Below are positions 37,897 through 47,624 of a stretch of 64,000 nt of DNA, piece after piece. Positions within the stretch are counted from its first letter, which is position 1, and each line of letters opens with the position of its first letter. The notes below the pieces were generated by a model. The model was not told where the DNA came from and made no database searches. It was given only the letters and a program-made list of their open reading frames with translations. The stretch comes from Methylocystis sp. (GTDB lineage Bacteria > Pseudomonadota > Alphaproteobacteria > Rhizobiales > Beijerinckiaceae), in assembly GCA_002929055.1 (NCBI GenBank), contig PERY01000011.1:1-64000 (forward strand). The letters are read 5' to 3'. Position numbers and translations under genes: made by a program.

Positions 37897-38751
37897 ATGC
37901 TATCAATTGCAACTAAAGCGCGAGACATGTTCATCATGCCCCAGATGCTCCCGCCGACGACCCATGAGCGCGAAGACCTTGCACGGGATTTACATGATGC
38001 GATTCAAGAGGGTGGCCTTCATCTAAACTATCAACCGGTCTTCGACTCCCGCTCGGAAAGGATACTGGGCGTGGAGGCGCTCTGCCGGTGGCGGCATCCC
38101 AGTCGTGGCGACATTCCGCCGCTGACCTTCATCCCTCTCGCGGAAGACAAGGGACTGATCTCGGCGCTTGGCGATTTCGTAATCCGGCAGGCCTGCATCG
38201 ACGCTCTGGACTGGCCGGGCGTAATGGTCGCAGTCAACGTCTCGCCGCAGCAGTTTCAGAAGCCGGAATTCGTCGAACGCATTCGACACATCCTGCTCGA
38301 GACCGGTCTGGCGCCCAGCAGGCTGGAGCTGGAAATCACCGAGAACCTCCTCATCGAAGACATCGAGGACGCAAGGACCAAGATGCAGGCGCTGCAGAGC
38401 GACGGAATTCGCTTTGCCCTCGACGACTTCGGCTCGGGATATTCGAGCTTGAACTATCTTCTCTCCCTGCCATTCGACAAGCTCAAGGTTGACCGGAGCT
38501 TCGTGCTCAGGCTGGAGGGTGGCGCGGCGAGCGTTGCAATCATTCACGCGATCGTCAGCATCGGCCGCGCGCTCGGCATGCATGTCACGGCGGAAGGAAT
38601 CGAAACCGCCGAGCAACAGCAGTTCCTGCGGGTCGCCGGCGTCCACTCCTTCCAGGGATTCAGGTTCAGCCGTCCTGTGCCATCGGAAATCATCTCGCGA
38701 ATGGTCGGTGAAGAACGACAATTCGCCAAGCTGAGCATGCACGCGAAATAA
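37897..38751 (+). CDS. EAL-domain cyclic-di-GMP phosphodiesterase
   Basis: The 284-residue protein is a single EAL domain of about 240 residues after a short N-terminus. All catalytic residues are present: LGVEALCRW (EAL), VAVNVSPQQF (Asn), LELEITEN (Glu), FALDDFGSGYSSL (Asp-Asp), KLKVDRSF (Lys), VTAEGIET (Glu) and VHSFQGFRFSRP (Gln). It should hydrolyse c-di-GMP to pGpG in the cytoplasm. There is no sensor domain or membrane segment. It lies next to the NfrB-like synthase and diverges from the receiver/pseudokinase gene, so it may locally tune polysaccharide secretion. Confidence 0.9.
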   Translation: MLSIATKARDMFIMPQMLPPTTHEREDLARDLHDAIQEGGLHLNYQPVFDSRSERILGVEALCRWRHPSRGDIPPLTFIPLAEDKGLISALGDFVIRQACIDALDWPGVMVAVNVSPQQFQKPEFVERIRHILLETGLAPSRLELEITENLLIEDIEDARTKMQALQSDGIRFALDDFGSGYSSLNYLLSLPFDKLKVDRSFVLRLEGGAASVAIIHAIVSIGRALGMHVTAEGIETAEQQQFLRVAGVHSFQGFRFSRPVPSEIISRMVGEERQFAKLSMHAK

Positions 38752-38766: not shown

Positions 38767-40227
38767 CTACGCCTGCTCCAGCGCGCGCGTCGCTCCTTTC
38801 GGGATCGTGTGCTGTGTCTTGTCCCAGGACAAAGGCTGCTTCTCGATCCTGTGGCGCCAGTAGAAGATGTAAAGCGCCCGAAGCGCGGCGCAAAAGTTGA
38901 GGCAGTTCGAAAAGACGACGCGAGGGGCGGCCATCAACCCTTGCGCGATGCCGTATACATGGGTCGTAAAGATCGTGCGCTGAAGGAGCCGGTTGGCCAG
39001 CAGCACGACGTTGATCAGGAACACCGTCTGCAGAACGGGGTGCAGCAGGACATAAGCTGCAATGCGCCAGTCGTCGCTGACCGTGGTGAGGATAGCGATC
39101 AAAACGGCGTTGAAGGTCAGAAAGTAGCCGGTGATCGCAATCAGCCCTGACGCAATGCCCTTCCGGTCGCGCAGAAAGAATATCCTCTCCAGCAAGTTGT
39201 CGCCCCAGCCGAGGTTGTTCGCGCCCTGGAAGCCGATACCGAGAATCCAGCGCGCTCTTTGGCGGTAGGCGGCGCGGAAGTCGTCCGGAAAATATTCTCG
39301 CGTCGCGATCGCCAGACGCTGCTCGATACGCGTCAGCGTCGCCGAACCCTCGGGGATGTCGAGCGTGAAGGACGCATCGTTCCGGATGAAGGCGGACCGC
39401 AGTCCGAGTTTCTTGATCCTGAAGGCGACGTCGTAGTCTTCGGTCAACGCCGCCGGATCGAAAACCTCTTCCGCGCGATCTTCGCTCAGAGCCTTGATGG
39501 CGCGCCTGCTGAAGCAGGCGGCGACGCCTGCACATGGGATGAAACCCGTCAGCCGCTCGCGGACCACGAGATCCTTGTTATGGAATTCCGCGAACTCGTC
39601 CATGTAGGAGCCGGCGACCATGTGGGTCAGCGACCGGCTGAAGGAGAAGACGGGAAGCTGAATGAAGTCCGTCTCGTCCAGAAGCGCATTGAAGAGCGCG
39701 AACTCCAGCGGATGGACGACATCCTCGCTGTCATGCAGCGCGCAGCCGACAAATTCGACTCCATGACCCTTCTCATACTCCGCAATGTGCCTCAGCACTC
39801 CGTTCAGGCAGTCGGCCTTGGTCGTGGGGCCATTCCTTGGGCCTACGACGAGCTTGACGTTGTAGGGATAATCCGCCGCCGCCCGCAACACTTCCTTCTG
39901 GGTGGCCAGATCATTTGGATAGGCGCCGACGAAGAAGACGACATAGGGCGTGTGAATGACATTGGCTTTCAGCATGGCGTAGATCACGTCATGCTCGTGC
40001 CATGCCGGAACCATCACGGCGATCGGGCGCATCGGCATGGAACGCAGACGCTCCTCGGGGATAGCCGGATGCCGGTTCGCTTCCAGCCCGAAAAGCCTCA
40101 TGGACCAGAAGACGACATCCACGAAAACATCATCGAGGCTGTAAACTATTATGGTCACGCCGGTGATGAGGAACAGCACAGCCACCGCATCTACGTAAGC
40201 GATTACAGCATCCGTCATGTCGTACAT
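38767..40227 (-). CDS. NfrB-like membrane glycosyltransferase (family 2) without MshEN domain
   Basis: Starting at ATG 40227 (MYDMTDAVIAYVDAVAV), the product has 486 residues. An N-terminal membrane helix is followed by a GT2 catalytic domain with VMVPAWHEHDVIYAML, the D-x-D region LHDSEDVVHPLEF, ALTEDYDVAF (acidic base) and YRQRARWILGI (Q-x-x-R-W of processive synthases). Three to four C-terminal helices follow. It resembles the GT half of Escherichia coli NfrB. The C-terminal MshEN c-di-GMP-binding domain of NfrB appears to be missing, as the gene ends after the membrane helices. It is downstream of wecB (16-bp gap) and opposite nfrA, matching a polysaccharide secretion locus. Confidence 0.85.
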   Translation of the reverse strand: MYDMTDAVIAYVDAVAVLFLITGVTIIVYSLDDVFVDVVFWSMRLFGLEANRHPAIPEERLRSMPMRPIAVMVPAWHEHDVIYAMLKANVIHTPYVVFFVGAYPNDLATQKEVLRAAADYPYNVKLVVGPRNGPTTKADCLNGVLRHIAEYEKGHGVEFVGCALHDSEDVVHPLEFALFNALLDETDFIQLPVFSFSRSLTHMVAGSYMDEFAEFHNKDLVVRERLTGFIPCAGVAACFSRRAIKALSEDRAEEVFDPAALTEDYDVAFRIKKLGLRSAFIRNDASFTLDIPEGSATLTRIEQRLAIATREYFPDDFRAAYRQRARWILGIGFQGANNLGWGDNLLERIFFLRDRKGIASGLIAITGYFLTFNAVLIAILTTVSDDWRIAAYVLLHPVLQTVFLINVVLLANRLLQRTIFTTHVYGIAQGLMAAPRVVFSNCLNFCAALRALYIFYWRHRIEKQPLSWDKTQHTIPKGATRALEQA

Positions 40228-40243
40228 TGAATAGCCCCCCGGC

Positions 40244-41434
40244 TCAGTTTGGAACGAAATTGAGTGCGCGCGCCTCGTGCCCGACCAGCCGGGCGCGCAT
40301 CTCACCGACAATTCTCTCCGCCGCCCGGCCGTCGCCATAAGGAAAGACGGGGACCGCCATGCGAGCGTAATGACGCGAATCGCAGTGAAGCTCAGAGATG
40401 GCGTCCAGCACTGCGATGGAGTCCGTGCCGATGATGCGCACGGCTCCGGCGTCGACCGCCTCCGGACGCTCGGTCGCGTCTCTGAGCACGAGCACCGGCT
40501 TGCCGAGCGCCGGCGCCTCCTCCTGCAAACCGCCGCTGTCCGTCACGACGATCCAGCAGCGCTGCATCGCAGCCACAAGGTCCGTATAGCCTAGAGCGTC
40601 GGTGACGGTGATGCGGGGGTGGCCGCCGAGGATTCTCTTTGCGGGCTCATGCGCCTTTGGATTGGGATGGGTGAGAAAGAAGAGCCCGAGGTCGTCATAG
40701 GTGTCGACGGCGGCGCGCAAGCCGGTCAACGCATCCTCGAGAGGCGCGCCGAAGCTTTCCCGGCGGTGGGCCGTGGACAGGATCACGCGCGGCTGGTCGG
40801 GAAAGCCGGGAGGCGCGGGCAGTTCGCGCGACGCGGTCTGCAGCAGCGCGTCGATCACCGTATTGCCGGTGACGAGACAGTTTCCCGGATCGACGCCCTC
40901 GCGCAGCAAATTGTCACGGGAGCGCTCGGTCGGCGCACAGTGAAGAGCGGAGGTCAGGCCGGCGATACGACGATTGAGCTCTTCCGGGAAAGGCTCGTCC
41001 ATATTCCCGGTGCGCAGCCCGGCCTCGACATGAATGAAGGGCACGCGGTTGTGGAAGGTTGCCAGCGACGCGGCCGCAACCGAACTCGTATCGCCCTGCC
41101 CCACGACGCAGATGGGCCGGATGAGTTCAATCAGCCTGTCGATCTCCATGATCGCCTTGCCAAAGAGTTCGTTGAGGGAACCGCTGCTGCGGTCGATCAC
41201 CAGCGCCCGGTTCGGCGTCACTCCGAATTCCTTCAGCGGCGCTTCTACGAGATGGGCGTGCTGTCCGGTCGTCACGACATAGGGAACGGCCCAGTCCGAC
41301 GCCTGTAGCGCCTGGATGACCGGGGCCATCTTGATGGCTTCGGGACGCGTTCCGACGACGCAGAGGCATCGCGCCCGGCGAGGCTCAAGTAAAAACTCAG
41401 CCGCGAAGCACGGGTCTTCTGGTGAATATGCCAT
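40244..41434 (-). CDS. wecB: UDP-N-acetylglucosamine 2-epimerase (non-hydrolysing)
   Basis: The 396-residue cytoplasmic enzyme converts UDP-GlcNAc to UDP-ManNAc. Features: LCVVGTRPEAIKMAPVIQAL at the N-terminus, TTGQHAHLVEAPLKEFGV, VVGQGDTSSVAAASLATF, and IHVEAGLRTGNMDEPFPEELNRR (catalytic His/Glu region), split for description. STAHRRESFG, VTDSGGLQEEAPALGKPVLVLR and ERPEAVDAG follow near the C-terminus. The start at 41434 (MAYSPEDPCF) is favoured. It is the middle gene of a leftward trio: small membrane protein, wecB, nfrB-like. In E. coli, WecB is the NfrC needed for phage N4 adsorption, which supports the NfrA/NfrB assignment here. Confidence 0.94.
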   Translation of the reverse strand: MAYSPEDPCFAAEFLLEPRRARCLCVVGTRPEAIKMAPVIQALQASDWAVPYVVTTGQHAHLVEAPLKEFGVTPNRALVIDRSSGSLNELFGKAIMEIDRLIELIRPICVVGQGDTSSVAAASLATFHNRVPFIHVEAGLRTGNMDEPFPEELNRRIAGLTSALHCAPTERSRDNLLREGVDPGNCLVTGNTVIDALLQTASRELPAPPGFPDQPRVILSTAHRRESFGAPLEDALTGLRAAVDTYDDLGLFFLTHPNPKAHEPAKRILGGHPRITVTDALGYTDLVAAMQRCWIVVTDSGGLQEEAPALGKPVLVLRDATERPEAVDAGAVRIIGTDSIAVLDAISELHCDSRHYARMAVPVFPYGDGRAAERIVGEMRARLVGHEARALNFVPN

Positions 41435-41503
41435 ATTACTCACTCTGTTACGCTTACGCCCACTCAACTTGAGCATTGTTATAATATAAATCCACTTTGG
41501 TGT

Positions 41504-41662
41504 CTATTGTCTGCCAATATCGAATGCAATCTTGATGAACGATAAGCTCAGACCTAGCAATAACATAAACGAAGCTGCAGCTGGACCGACAAAAAATCCG
41601 GCTGCAAAGGCCAAGACACAGGTCATAATGAACATAACTGTCAGAATAAACAACACTCTCAT
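41504..41662 (-). CDS. 52-aa membrane protein upstream of wecB
   Basis: A 52-codon frame begins at ATG 41662 behind GAGGA (6 nt spacing) and ends at TAG 41504-41506. The product is MRVLFILTVMFIMTCVLAFA, then AGFFVGPAAASFMLLLGL and SLSFIKIAFDIGRQ. It has two hydrophobic helices and a short basic tail. The sequence is much less GC-rich than its neighbours. It lies 69 bp upstream of wecB on the same strand and probably opens that operon. I do not recognise its family. Its strong ribosome-binding site and perfect membrane-protein design make it a credible gene too short for usual cut-offs. Confidence 0.65.
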   Translation of the reverse strand: MRVLFILTVMFIMTCVLAFAAGFFVGPAAASFMLLLGLSLSFIKIAFDIGRQ

Positions 41663-41755
41663 TGGATTTTCCTCGATGTTGCACTTTTGCTCTATTGAAA
41701 GTAATGCAGCTTCGGTATCAATTTGTCAGCACATTGATGCGATAAAGGTTATTCA

Positions 41756-44700
41756 GTGAAACAGCTAAGCTATATTTGGCCGGCAGGCCGGAGATCTTCA
41801 GCGGAGTCGATGATGAGCGGCTTACTTCGGACAGCGGCGGCCTCGGCGATTCTCTTGCAGATGGTCGCCACCCCGCTCGCGCCAGCGGCCGCGCAGCCGA
41901 AGGCGCCGCTCGCAGAAGGTCCGCAGCCCGGTGGGCCCGGCTTCGAGGAGTTGGCTTATGCCTATGATCGGCTTGCGAAGGGCGATCTGGACGGCGCGAT
42001 AAGATTCGCCCGCCGCGCCCGTGAATTGTCGCCGGACGCCGAAGCGCCCGTGCGCGTCCTTGCGGACGCTCTGTCGAAAGCGGGGCAGGACAAAGAGGCG
42101 CTCGACGTCGCTAACGCCTATGCATCGTCACACAAGCCGTCGAGCCAATTGCTCGCGCAGCGCGGCTATCTGCGCAGCCGTCTCAAGGATGAGGCGGGCG
42201 CCGAATCGGATCTTCGCAGCGCACGGCAATCCGGGGGGTTGAGCAAGGAACAGGACACGGCCGCGGCAGCCTCGCTTTTCGATCTCGCGCTGTCGCCGGC
42301 CTACAGAAACGTTCAGCTCGGGAAATTCGAGGAGGCCATCGTCGCCGCCGAGAAGGCGCGCAAGCTCGATCCCGACGCCGAAGCGCCTGTTCGCATTATC
42401 GTCGAAGCCTACAGCCGGATGGGCAGGACGCAACAGGCGCTCGCCGAAGCGGACCGCTACATCGCCGACCACAAGGCGAGCGGGAAGCTCTACGCGCAGC
42501 GCGGCTATCTGCGCCGCGCGACGAAGGACGTGAAAGGCGCGCAGGAGGATTTTGAAACCGCACTCGCGACGAACGACAACGACGAAAGCGATACGGGAAG
42601 AATGCGCGACGCCCTCGGCGAGGCGAAGAAGGCCGGAAGTCCAGGCTACGCCGAGATCGAGCGCGCGTACAAGGCGATCGAAATCGGCGATTTCAGCAAG
42701 GCCGCCGATGCGGCGCGGGAAGCGCGGTCGAAAGACCCGAAGGCGGAGGCGCCCGTGCTCATACTGATGAGCGCGCTCAATCGACTGAAGCAGCCGCAGG
42801 CGGCCATCGACGAAGCGAATCGCTTCATCTCCGGGAATCAGCCGAGCGCTGCGCTTCTCGCGCAGCGGGGCTACCTGCGCCGCGCAACGAAGGATTTGAA
42901 AGGCGCCGCCGAAGATTTCAAGGCCGCTCTGGCGCGCCAGGGATTGCCGCCCGCGCAGGAGAAGCGAATCCGGCTGGCCCTCTCCGAAGCGGAGCGCGCC
43001 CAGAACCCTGGAGCCGCACCAGCCAGCGCGCCGGCGCAAGCGGAGCCGACCGCCTCGCCGCTCGATCAGGCGTTGAACCGCGCCTATGAGGCCTATAACG
43101 CCGGCGACATGAGGGACGCCCTTCTCGCCGCCCGCGAGGCCGCGTCGCTCGATCCCAAAGCGGAGCAACCCCCGCTCATCGCAATGAATGCGCTGACGCG
43201 CCTTGGCCGCAAGGGTGAGGCGCTCGCGGAAGCAAACCGCTTCCTGTCGAGGAACAAAAGCGCCGACGTGTATGCGCAACGCGGCTTTCTGCGGCGCCAG
43301 ACAAAGGACGTCAGCGGCGCCATAGCGGATTTCAGCGAGGCGCTGAAGCTCGGGACTCTGAAAGGCAAGCAACGGACGGTCGTCGCTGAGGCGCTGAACG
43401 AGGCGCGCTACTTCATCGTTGCGGACAAGGCCTTCAAGGCTTCCGCCGCGCGCGATTGGCCGGCGGCGCTGCGCTATTCACGGCAGGCTCAGGCGCTCGG
43501 CCGCGCCGATGAAGCGATGTATCGCGTGACCATCGAAGCGCTGGCGCAACTCGGTCGCGTGGACGATGCGCTGCAAGCCTCGAACGCGCTCATCGCAAAT
43601 GGCAAGGCGAGCGGACAGGCCTATGCGCAGCGCGGCTATCTGCACGCCCGCATGGAAGACCACGCCGGCGCAGTCTCGGACTTCTCCACGGCGCTGGCCA
43701 AAGGCGGCCTGCCGCCGCAGCAGCGGCTGTCGGTCGCGCGGGGCCTCTCATTCGAGAAAGCGAAGCTTTACGAAGCGAATGGCGAGCCGGAGCGCGCACT
43801 CGCCGAACTCGGGAATTTCTGCCGAGCCTATCCTCATGACGCGGAAGGCTGGTCGACGCTGGGGCAGTTCCATCATCGCTACGGCCATCACGCTCGGGCG
43901 GTGGCGGCTTATGAAAACAGCCTCGCCATCGAGCGCCGGGGCGAAGTTCTGCTCAACGCCGGCTACGCCAGCGTCTATGTGAACCGCGCGCAGGAATCGA
44001 AATATTTTCGTGAGGCGATCGACCGCTGGTCGAGCGATCCTTCGCTGAAGCTGCGGCCCGCCCTCGACGAGGAAGTCGTGCGGACGCAAATCACCGACGC
44101 GGAATGGAGCGTGCGCACCAATGTCGTCTTCGGCGCCATCGTCGATCGCTCGAAGCGCTGGGGCGGACACCAGATTCAGCCGAGCTTCGAGACCGCGATG
44201 CGTTTCGACGGCCGCTATCTTCCTTACCTTTTCGGCCTCGAGACCTTCGTCGGCGGCTTCTGGTCGCAGGACCAGACCCGCTTCACTGAAGCCTTCTCGC
44301 GCATCGGCCTGCGCGTGCGGCCCTTCGACGGCGTTGATTTCAGCATCAGCGGCGAATATCAGCACCATTTCGCCGGAGGGCCGCCCAATCAGTTCGCGCT
44401 CTCCTGGGGTTATGGCTATGGCGGCTTCGCCTATTCGAGCACGCCGAGCGCGGCGGCTCAGGGCGCTACGCAGCCGACGATGATGGCCTATCCGTTCCAG
44501 TCCGGCTGGCAGCCGCTGACGAGCTTTGCGACTTACGGAACCTTCCGCACGGGCGAGAGTCGCTATCTCCAAAATGCGACCGGACTTCTCGGCTACGCTT
44601 ATTGGAGCCGGAATCCGCGATTCGTGATAGGCCCCACGGCGATGGCGATGGCTTCCTATGACAGCGCGGACCGGCGGCGCTCGGCCTTTGGCGTCGGTCC

Positions 44701-44845
44701 GGGCGTAGTCTTCCGGGCATGGCTTGGCGGCGACGACTATCGGGCCTTCGACGGTCTGGTCACGCTTCAGCTCGGCTACCTCTTTCCCTTCGGGGAAAGT
44801 CGCCGGCTCGGCGGGCTGAATGCAACGCTTGGCGTCACCTTCTGA
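41756..44845 (+). CDS. NfrA-like TPR outer-membrane protein
   Basis: The 1029-residue protein has a signal peptide (residues about 18-48, AASAILLQMVATPLAPAAA). A long TPR region follows, with five super-repeats each containing a QRGYLR-type motif near residues 135, 248, 370, 508 and 625. The C-terminal beta-rich domain (residues about 780-1029) ends GGLNATLGVTF. This architecture (periplasmic TPR plus C-terminal NfrA domain) matches NfrA, the outer-membrane receptor of phage N4, which works with NfrB. Here it is divergent from the wecB/nfrB-like operon and would export or anchor a ManNAc-type polymer. It starts at GTG 41756 after AAAGG; a later ATG at 41810 is an alternative. Confidence 0.82.
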   Translation: MKQLSYIWPAGRRSSAESMMSGLLRTAAASAILLQMVATPLAPAAAQPKAPLAEGPQPGGPGFEELAYAYDRLAKGDLDGAIRFARRARELSPDAEAPVRVLADALSKAGQDKEALDVANAYASSHKPSSQLLAQRGYLRSRLKDEAGAESDLRSARQSGGLSKEQDTAAAASLFDLALSPAYRNVQLGKFEEAIVAAEKARKLDPDAEAPVRIIVEAYSRMGRTQQALAEADRYIADHKASGKLYAQRGYLRRATKDVKGAQEDFETALATNDNDESDTGRMRDALGEAKKAGSPGYAEIERAYKAIEIGDFSKAADAAREARSKDPKAEAPVLILMSALNRLKQPQAAIDEANRFISGNQPSAALLAQRGYLRRATKDLKGAAEDFKAALARQGLPPAQEKRIRLALSEAERAQNPGAAPASAPAQAEPTASPLDQALNRAYEAYNAGDMRDALLAAREAASLDPKAEQPPLIAMNALTRLGRKGEALAEANRFLSRNKSADVYAQRGFLRRQTKDVSGAIADFSEALKLGTLKGKQRTVVAEALNEARYFIVADKAFKASAARDWPAALRYSRQAQALGRADEAMYRVTIEALAQLGRVDDALQASNALIANGKASGQAYAQRGYLHARMEDHAGAVSDFSTALAKGGLPPQQRLSVARGLSFEKAKLYEANGEPERALAELGNFCRAYPHDAEGWSTLGQFHHRYGHHARAVAAYENSLAIERRGEVLLNAGYASVYVNRAQESKYFREAIDRWSSDPSLKLRPALDEEVVRTQITDAEWSVRTNVVFGAIVDRSKRWGGHQIQPSFETAMRFDGRYLPYLFGLETFVGGFWSQDQTRFTEAFSRIGLRVRPFDGVDFSISGEYQHHFAGGPPNQFALSWGYGYGGFAYSSTPSAAAQGATQPTMMAYPFQSGWQPLTSFATYGTFRTGESRYLQNATGLLGYAYWSRNPRFVIGPTAMAMASYDSADRRRSAFGVGPGVVFRAWLGGDDYRAFDGLVTLQLGYLFPFGESRRLGGLNATLGVTF

Positions 44846-44923
44846 AGATTTTGATCAAATCCTCGGCGTCGCCGATACGGATTGTTGCGGCGAATGCGGC
44901 AGGCTCCTCTCCAGGAGCCGCCC

Positions 44924-45130
44924 ATGCCCAACAAGACCGCGTTTCGCTTCAACCAGCTTATGACGATCACCGCCGGATGGTGCCTGCTTTATCTCGTCTG
45001 GAGCTACCCCGTGCTGCAACTCGCTGCGCCTCCGGCGCTTTGGCTCGCGTCTGTCGCGCACGCCCGCCGCACCGCCCCAAGACTGCGACACGCGCCCAGC
45101 GCCGTTGGAAAGCCTTCGCCGGCGCATTAG
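44924..45130 (+). CDS. Small single-helix membrane protein downstream of nfrA
   Basis: The 68-residue product starts at ATG 44924 with AGGAG 6 nt upstream. Residues about 14-42 (ITAGWCLLYLVWSYPVLQL then AAPPALWLASVAHA) form one or two membrane helices. The C-terminal 25 residues are Arg/Pro/Ala-rich and overlap the next gene. It follows nfrA by 78 bp and is probably co-transcribed. No family is recognised. The basic tail in the other gene's overlap may be poorly conserved. Confidence 0.55.
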   Translation: MPNKTAFRFNQLMTITAGWCLLYLVWSYPVLQLAAPPALWLASVAHARRTAPRLRHAPSAVGKPSPAH

Positions 45131-45777
45131 CCCGCATCGCTCTCGCCTGCGCCGCAACGGGCGCCGCGAGCGCCGAGAACAGGATGCTCATCCTCACCCC
45201 GGCCGTCGCGGACCGCCCGCAGGATACGCATGCAGCCCTCGCGCTGGCCCCCGCTGTTTTCCATTCTCCCGTGCTCTTCAGCGGGCGCGTCGCGACGCTC
45301 TCGCAACTGCGGCGCGGAACCCCCGCGAATCCATGGGAATGCGCCTGGCTCGTCTGGAATTACACAGACGACGAGCATTTCTATTACCTAGCGCTGAAGC
45401 CCGGCGGCTGGGAGTTAGGGAAGCGAGACCCGGCCTACCCCGGCGGCCAGCGCTTTGTGGCGACGGGATCGCTCGCCTCTCCAGTCGGCTTGTGGCGCTC
45501 GTTTCAAATCAAGCAGAAGGGCGACGAGATCGCGATCGCGATCGACGGGCGGCGGCTGGTCTCCTTCGAAGACATTGTGCCGCCCATATACAAGTCGGGG
45601 AGACTGGGCCTCTACACCGAGGACGCCCGAGTCGCGCTGGACGACGTGACGCAGCCGCTCGCAGAAAACTTCGACGACATGCCACGCCAGACGACGGCGC
45701 AGGACGGAACGACTCTCGGCGGCTGGTCGCTGCCCTTTCTGGGCTTCGGGACCGCATCGATCGCGCCGCGCCCCTAG
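45040..45777 (+). CDS. Secreted concanavalin-like/DUF1080-type protein (start uncertain)
   Basis: The frame encodes a signal peptide (KAFAGALARIALACAATGAASA), so it needs a start upstream of it. The only usual candidate is TTG 45040, which has no ribosome-binding site and overlaps the previous gene; ATG 45184 would remove the signal. The mature part resembles a laminin/DUF1080-like jelly-roll. VLFSGRVATLSQLRRG, WLVWNYTDDEHFYYLALKPGGWELGKRDP, FQIKQKGDEIAIAIDGRRL and GRLGLYTEDARVALDDV are typical of glycan-binding concanavalin-like domains, described in pieces. It may bind or trim the polymer made by the NfrA/B locus; that is an inference from location. It overlaps the convergent next gene by 4 bp. 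Confidence 0.65.
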   Translation: MARVCRARPPHRPKTATRAQRRWKAFAGALARIALACAATGAASAENRMLILTPAVADRPQDTHAALALAPAVFHSPVLFSGRVATLSQLRRGTPANPWECAWLVWNYTDDEHFYYLALKPGGWELGKRDPAYPGGQRFVATGSLASPVGLWRSFQIKQKGDEIAIAIDGRRLVSFEDIVPPIYKSGRLGLYTEDARVALDDVTQPLAENFDDMPRQTTAQDGTTLGGWSLPFLGFGTASIAPRP

Positions 45778-46187: not shown

Positions 46188-46625
46188 CTACGCCGAGGAG
46201 CCGGCGTCTTTCTCAATGGCCTCCATATCCGCGTCGGAAAGGCCGAAATGATGGCCGATTTCATGGACGAGGACATGGGTGACGATCGCCCCCAATGTGT
46301 CGTCGCCTTCGGCCCAGAAATCGAGGATTGGCCGCCGGTAGAGCCAAACCATGTTAGGCTGGTCGCCCGTCTGCGCGAGGTGCTCACCCTCGACGAGGCC
46401 GCGGCCGCGAAACAGCCCGAGAAGATCGAACTCAGTCTCGCAGTCCATCTCCTCCAACGTTTCGTCGTCGGGAAAATCCTCGACCCGGATGACGACGCCT
46501 TCGCAAAGCTTTGTAAACCTCTCCGGCAAACCGGCGAAGGCGGCGTCCGCAAAGGCTTCCAGATCGGAAAGGGTCGGGGCGCTGAGCAGCGCCCAATTGG
46601 ATGTCTCGGCCATGCCGTATGCCAT
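46188..46625 (-). CDS. Metallopeptidase family protein (zincin, DUF1025-like)
   Basis: The 145-residue cytoplasmic protein has the zinc motif VLVHEIGHHFGLSDADMEAIE near the C-terminus (H-E-x-x-H-x-x-G). The family opening is FADAAFAGLPERFTKL, and VIRVEDFPDDE follows. The N-terminal strand and the LLGLFRG and YRRPILDFWAEG segments are typical of this compact zincin group. Substrates are unknown. It lies 9 bp upstream of the YbaY-like gene, a likely two-gene unit. Confidence 0.85.
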   Translation of the reverse strand: MAYGMAETSNWALLSAPTLSDLEAFADAAFAGLPERFTKLCEGVVIRVEDFPDDETLEEMDCETEFDLLGLFRGRGLVEGEHLAQTGDQPNMVWLYRRPILDFWAEGDDTLGAIVTHVLVHEIGHHFGLSDADMEAIEKDAGSSA

Positions 46626-46877: not shown

Positions 46878-47624
46878 ATGTTTGCGTCCGTCAGCCGTCT
46901 GAACGAGCCGAAATCACAGCGCGAGGCCTACCGCCTTGTCGTCACCTACACGGCTGTCTCGGTCGCTGTATCCGCCGGAGTGACCTATCTTTTCGCGCTC
47001 AGCAACAACTGGCCGGTCGGCAACGCCCTGATCCCCGGCGTCGGCATCCCCTTGCTCGTCGCGCCCTGGATGACATGGACGACCTCCAGCTATGCGCTGC
47101 GACTGCACAACATGCGCGGCGAACTCGAAAGGCTTGCTCGGACCGATCCGCTAAGCGGCGCGCTCAACCGCCGGGGCCTGAAGGAATACGCCGACAAGGC
47201 CTTCGCGGACAGGCGACGGGCGGGCGGCTTTTCAGCCATCGTCATGGATGTCGATAAGTTCAAGTCGGTGAACGACACTTACGGACATTCAGCGGGCGAC
47301 ACGGTCATCGCGCGAGTTGCGGAGATCACCCGCCACATTGCCGGCGAAAACTGCGTCGTCGGCCGTCTTGGCGGCGATGAAATGGTCGCATTCTTCACCG
47401 GCCGATCACTGGAAGAGACATTGATCACGGCCGAGCGCATACGCGGCGCCATAGAACACATGATCTTCATTCACGAGGATCGGGCGCTGCGCGTGACCGC
47501 GAGCATCGGCGTCGCTGCGGCGGACGCGGACGACGAATCCGCGGAAGCCATTCTCAAGCGCGCCGACCAGTTCCTCTATGCGGCCAAGACGGAAGGCCGC
47601 AACCGGGTGCGCGCGGCGGCCTGA
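46878..47624 (+). CDS. Membrane GGDEF diguanylate cyclase (GGDEM variant)
   Basis: The 248-residue protein has two membrane helices (YRLVVTYTAVSVAVSAGVTYLFAL, and ALIPGVGIPLLVAPWMTW) and then a GGDEF domain starting LARTDPLSGALNRRGL. The catalytic loop is VGRLGGDEMVAFF: GGDEM instead of GGDEF, with the essential Gly-Gly-Asp-Glu kept, so c-di-GMP synthesis is possible. The Mg/Asp segment VMDVDKFKSVNDTYGHSAGD is intact. No RxxD inhibitory site is visible upstream of the loop. It may supply c-di-GMP for the nearby polysaccharide locus, a proximity-based inference. Confidence 0.9.
   Translation: MFASVSRLNEPKSQREAYRLVVTYTAVSVAVSAGVTYLFALSNNWPVGNALIPGVGIPLLVAPWMTWTTSSYALRLHNMRGELERLARTDPLSGALNRRGLKEYADKAFADRRRAGGFSAIVMDVDKFKSVNDTYGHSAGDTVIARVAEITRHIAGENCVVGRLGGDEMVAFFTGRSLEETLITAERIRGAIEHMIFIHEDRALRVTASIGVAAADADDESAEAILKRADQFLYAAKTEGRNRVRAAA

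Follow-up and report, generated by a model that had tools for sequence, protein, structure and literature searches.

On balance, the locus described here is probably an Nfr/NGR-type cassette for a putative ManNAc polymer, with a glycosyltransferase (GT) that is likely to have been freed of direct gating by c-di-GMP. It lies in a 64,000-nucleotide stretch of a Methylocystis sp. contig (hereafter the window), from a genome assembly of 3.0 Mb in 63 contigs that is 89% complete. The locus and its neighbours comprise the following features:

38767..40227, minus strand: NfrB-like family-2 GT, 486 aa from the likely start ATG at 40227, assigned by profiles and alignment
40244..41476, minus strand: WecB-type non-hydrolysing UDP-GlcNAc 2-epimerase, assigned by Pfam and TIGR00236
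41504..41662, minus strand: 52-aa hydrophobic small membrane protein, kept in Methylocystis cassettes
41663..41809, no strand: divergent intergenic region between the small protein/WecB/GT unit and NfrA
41756 (GTG) or, more likely, 41810 (ATG) to 44845, plus strand: NfrA-like protein with TPRs and NfrA_C
about 45130..45777, plus strand: putative secreted accessory protein, start not fixed (frame open 44662-45777), recognised by likeness to the relatives' gene
37897..38751, plus strand: EAL phosphodiesterase (Pfam EAL, 1.2e-71), a neighbour and not a conserved cassette member
46878..47624, plus strand: GGDEF diguanylate cyclase (Pfam GGDEF, 2e-36), likewise a neighbour and not a conserved cassette member

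The gene coordinates and the Pfam and profile matches (window proteins were scanned with Pfam at E<=1) agree with the original prediction that WecB, an NfrB-like GT2 and an NfrA-like protein adjoin one another. The NfrA gene is divergent from the small protein/WecB/GT unit, and the secreted-protein gene lies downstream of NfrA. All four cassette genes listed in that prediction are present, but a fifth gene of the locus that is kept in the genus, at about 45130-45777, had been overlooked. Its statement that nfrA, nfrB and wecB are all encoded apart in E. coli was wrong: nfrB and nfrA overlap and form one operon with ybcH, and of the trio only wecB is encoded elsewhere. The EAL gene is indeed adjacent and the GGDEF gene about 2 kb off, but the EAL gene and the GT converge, with 15 bp separating the ends of their stop codons, and the EAL gene therefore stands outside the GT operon. 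Two further genes were observed between the cassette and the GGDEF gene, one resembling a YscW-family lipoprotein (PF09619; 45774-46184) and one with the sequence HEIGH (46188-46625), which we take to be an HExxH motif.

The GT matched Glyco_tranf_2_3 in Pfam (4e-35), and its best family profiles were those of the NfrB, PRK14716 and PRK15489 types, not cellulose synthase; judged by these profiles, it had been rightly placed with NfrB. It passes the curated cut-off of NCBIfam NF011305 (463.3 versus 409) and has the same length as this profile of 486 positions, a family (PRK14716.1-3, glycosyl transferase family protein) whose name carries no assigned function. Its top-scoring profile, NF012033, was narrowly below cut-off (522.3 versus 537), and the cut-off of the NfrB equivalog NF008411 was not reached (454.9 bits versus 1170). 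The GT aligns with E. coli NfrB over its full length at 38% identity, and the DxD/TED/QxxRW positions (D166/E168/D169, T262-D264 and Q323/R326/W327) are invariant in 18/18 sequences of an alignment of the window GT with 17 relatives, E. coli NfrB included. No PDB sequence matched the GT at E<=0.001.

The C-terminal end of the protein reads WDKTQHTIPKGATRALEQA, with only 10 residues between the WDKTxHxxP motif and the stop, at the point where E. coli NfrB continues into its c-di-GMP region. Pfam at E<=1 found in the GT neither MshEN nor PilZ, the domain of the cellulose synthase BcsA; as a positive control, it detected MshEN in E. coli NfrB with 52.9 bits. For residues 414-745 of E. coli NfrB, a c-di-GMP Kd of 1.0 uM has been published. 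No c-di-GMP-binding domain was found at the C-terminus by Pfam or by a search for the pattern LGxxL. Sequence comparison thus confirmed the earlier view of this GT as an NfrB relative minus the c-di-GMP domain.

Our survey drew GTs from the genus, from each of the 16 genomes with a match among 387 in the class, from 30 of the 38 such genomes among 397 in the phylum, and from named matches, of which the best 80 of at least 578 were taken. Tail length separated these GTs into three classes: up to 35 aa, 64-88 aa, and at least 150 aa. Pfam alone was too blunt a score for MshEN: of 13 distinct GTs in the 64-88-aa class five were scanned and none of the five had a Pfam MshEN, yet 11 of the 13 tails (e.g., L034, L049, L135 and L152) retain two LG motifs by eye, another has an LG plus an IG, and the last (L062) is degenerate. 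Because Pfam missed the short tails scanned, the LGxxL search of the tails was added, and this pattern was absent from every tail of 35 aa or less, that of the window GT included. The LG motifs of the 64-88-aa tails look similar to two sites in E. coli NfrB, G491 and G519. According to the available part of PMC8669472, N4 killing was abolished or reduced by substitutions of G491 and G519 and was unaffected by most of the other substitutions made there.

A quick maximum-likelihood tree was built from 125 GTs (42 tail-less, 13 short-tailed and 70 long-tailed), after removal of repeated entries for a locus, of identical sequences and of rows in which fewer than 380 residues aligned; it has no bootstrap or outgroup, and its root is arbitrary. 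The window GT falls in a 25-row tail-less clade (SH-aLRT 99) nested among tailed GTs. This clade contains the window's genus, a MAG titled Rhodoblastus, Bradyrhizobium, Pseudolabrys, a Phyllobacteriaceae MAG, a Rhizobiaceae MAG and a record titled Frankia, members that we take to be Hyphomicrobiales. Other Hyphomicrobiales (Beijerinckia L095, Microvirga L132 and Pseudoxanthobacter L123) have long-tailed GTs on a separate branch. Another sixteen of the tail-less rows represent short, distantly related GTs, the majority of them belonging to a single family of the class (f36). L096, though counted among the 42 tail-less rows, was rejected as a true tail loss, being cut by a contig end. The tail-less label requires three changes on the tree, one of them the L096 contig-end artefact; on a quick tree with an arbitrary root and this number of changes, the preference for loss over gain rests on the nesting. 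These observations point to a probable loss of the c-di-GMP-binding tail in the ancestor of one NfrB clade. The printed counts in the available text of PMC8669469, 1,705 of 1,841 NfrB homologues carrying MshEN, imply 136 homologues without it. The Frankia record, L088 (Frankia sp. RB7), groups within Bradyrhizobium and is probably mislabelled or contaminated.

Within the genus, the GT occurs in 15/37 genomes, and it was found in 0/24 genomes from other families of the order. The loci of 11 relatives were compared over 15-20 kb each: the five genes (secreted protein, NfrA, small protein, WecB and GT) stand together in ten, and in the eleventh the GT lies at a contig edge. The neighbours of the named loci were counted where at least 5.5 kb of context was present on each side, and 19 of the 80 loci were set aside for short context. 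Within 8 kb of the GT, WecB, NfrA, YbcH-like and BcsB-like proteins were encoded at 17, 9, 0 and 1 of 17 tail-less loci, at 5, 6, 2 and 4 of 6 short-tailed loci, and at 28, 36, 24 and 24 of 38 long-tailed loci, respectively. WecB was thus encoded near the GT in every tail-less named locus with context. A YbcH-like (DUF4434) gene was found neither among the window's ORFs nor near the GT in the 17 tail-less loci. In the Methylocystis loci L017-L027, the divergent intergenic region between the small gene and NfrA was seen to contain conserved blocks around CCTGATTCGCGTGA; the window's shorter region is mostly without them.

The NfrA-like protein contains TPRs and NfrA_C, the latter at 35.0 bits against a Pfam cut-off of 25, and a putative signal peptide recognised by eye. 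Its five TPR super-repeats are 113-138 aa apart and are also visible in the DNA, at a spacing of 339-414 bp. At E<=0.01, NfrA_C was matched in 12/15 GT-positive genomes of the genus and in 0/22 GT-negative ones; only 3 of these 12 matches reach the Pfam cut-off, the window's among them, and 9 of the other 11 are below it. One of the three GT-positive genomes lacking a match (G026) nevertheless has NfrA by tblastn. The Bradyrhizobium GTs have no NfrA nearby, and NfrA_C occurs elsewhere in the genome in all four searched. The putative secreted protein is 37-40% identical to the gene product encoded beside NfrA in relatives; its gene is on the same strand as NfrA in the window and convergent with NfrA in the 10 complete relatives. 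A role as an enzyme was considered but not adopted: the match to the Pfam 3-keto-disaccharide hydrolase family (18.8 bits) is below the 26.8 cut-off, neither of two scanned relatives matched, and the best PDB hit had an E of 0.071. Neither accessory protein, small or secreted, belonged to a Pfam family above cut-off in the members scanned.

Under the reading that we prefer, WecB, by family only, would make UDP-ManNAc, which the membrane GT would polymerise while moving the chain through the inner membrane; NfrA would then carry the chain across the periplasm and outer membrane. In the periplasm, the putative secreted protein may take the place of YbcH by binding or trimming the chain, and the 52-aa protein probably serves the synthase as a small structural subunit. 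As its c-di-GMP-binding tail was probably lost, the GT would probably not be gated directly by c-di-GMP, and polymer output would be set by expression and by UDP-ManNAc supply.

As an alternative, the GT might use another sugar while WecB serves a different pathway. The epimerase is assigned as a family member (Pfam Epimerase_2, 1.8e-91; TIGR00236, 371.3 bits versus a cut-off of 210.15), and by family only would supply UDP-ManNAc. It adjoins the GT in 10 of the 11 GT-bearing genomes searched, and a second copy elsewhere in 3 of these 10 relatives leaves some room for a separate function. However, in the window's genome wecB is the sole copy found, with its end 16 bp upstream of the GT start; together with the WecB genes near the GT in all 17 tail-less loci, this makes us regard a different sugar as unlikely. 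A WecB was found in 1 of 5 GT-negative genomes. It is rather unlikely, though somewhat less so, that c-di-GMP continues to control the synthase in this species by way of the local EAL and GGDEF proteins and an unrecognised receptor, e.g., a PilZ protein encoded elsewhere. The two genes do flank the cassette above density expectation: with 13 EAL/GGDEF proteins in 3.0 Mb, an estimated ~0.03-0.06 would be expected within 3 kb, and 2 were observed. The genome also has nine EAL domains, compared with 2-3 in each of the 11 relatives, so that c-di-GMP signalling looks expanded in the species, and it contains six PilZ matches. However, all six lie off the cassette's contig, one of them beside a BcsB match on contig C14, and this separate locus is a more obvious c-di-GMP target; the convergent orientation of the EAL gene argues in the same direction. 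Moreover, a search of 12 genomes found no EAL or GGDEF gene closer than 10 kb to the cassette in any of the 11 relatives, to the extent that their contigs cover this distance (the L079 contig is only 10 kb and the shorter flank in G012 about 9 kb); the nearest, in G026, lies 21 kb away from the GT and some 15 kb beyond the cassette edge. The suggestion that control has moved to a neighbouring protein was not upheld by these data, and relocated c-di-GMP control is not supported. MshEN was absent genome-wide from 6 of the 11 GT-bearing genomes searched (the window's own among the 11), so that a separate MshEN partner is not required; all five GT-negative genomes have MshEN. The single MshEN protein of the window's genome was rejected as a GT regulator, being a type II/IV secretion ATPase.

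The 52-aa protein, named in the original prediction as a possible new switch, invites comparison with the PNAG synthase PgaC/PgaD, in which a GT without its own c-di-GMP domain stands with a small membrane protein and the site is shared by both. All 10 complete relatives, as well as L079 (titled Rhodoblastus), encode a 51-52-aa membrane protein in the interval from NfrA to WecB. The pairwise differences at the three codon positions (456/138/844 over 11 relatives), together with AGGAG upstream of 7 of the 12 small-gene starts and purine-rich stretches before the others, indicate a real gene. On this precedent, the protein might form a ligand site together with the GT, but we hold this to be the least probable of the alternatives. 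Over 13 sequences the invariant residues are F, F, G, G, L, S, F, I, A and G, with a single serine and no charged residue among them, and only the terminal R is a nearly invariant charged one; by eye, almost nothing of the protein is outside the membrane. It was found in just 6 of the 17 tail-less named loci with context, all six Methylocystis. Such residues are more in keeping with a structural helix hairpin than with a nucleotide receptor, and with no invariant charged residue the proposal of a new c-di-GMP switch is not supported. A broader version, in which the small protein and the tail-less GT constitute a new regulated synthase, the small subunit replacing MshEN and the secreted protein replacing YbcH/BcsB, seems to us very unlikely as well; its switch would be an interfacial ligand site or the gating of the translocation channel. 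Described side by side, PgaC/PgaD and the window locus both place a GT beside a small membrane protein, and differ in that the 52-aa protein has no invariant charged residue.

Of the known systems, the E. coli NfrB-NfrA-YbcH pathway with WecB (PMC8669469 and PMC8669472, in the parts available) is alike in its NfrB-type GT2 catalytic motifs, its NfrA-like TPR/outer-membrane protein and WecB. In contrast to that NGR pathway, the window locus lacks MshEN and a YbcH-like (DUF4434) gene, has a linked WecB and a divergent NfrA, and includes an extra small membrane protein and a different putative secreted protein. BgsA, the mixed-linkage glucan synthase of Rhizobiales, is described in the available part of PMC5567048 as binding c-di-GMP through a tail without a predictable domain. 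It resembles the window GT as a Rhizobiales GT lacking a predictable c-di-GMP domain, but it has a c-di-GMP-binding C-terminal cytoplasmic domain, whereas the window GT has 10 residues after WDKTxHxxP. By analogy, c-di-GMP could also be bound here by a receptor that has no known domain.

The points still of interest are that one clade of NfrB synthases lacks the c-di-GMP tail and that the genus keeps two undescribed accessory proteins; among the literature matches listed, no paper dealt with the Methylocystis cassette or the tail-less clade. The MshEN-less NfrBs form a natural comparison group for the role of the c-di-GMP domain and for GT activity without it. In Methylocystis the genes form one small cassette, often with a single WecB, so that the putative ManNAc product could be tested by a one-gene deletion. 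A laboratory strain that carries the cassette is M. rosea SV97 (locus L077).

The compact layout is common in the NfrB family and is not particular to the window. The linkage of wecB and GGDEF genes to nfr operons was published in 2021 (PMC8669469, available part), and clustering of nfrA, nfrB and wecB with a BcsB homologue in Achromobacter xylosoxidans is reported in the available part of PMC8669472; the main text of PMC8669469, as far as available, does not mention BcsB. In many nfr loci of our survey, a BcsB-like protein of about 650-750 aa is encoded between WecB and the GT (e.g., L080:5965-7986, L091:5569-7554 and L147:5715-7952).
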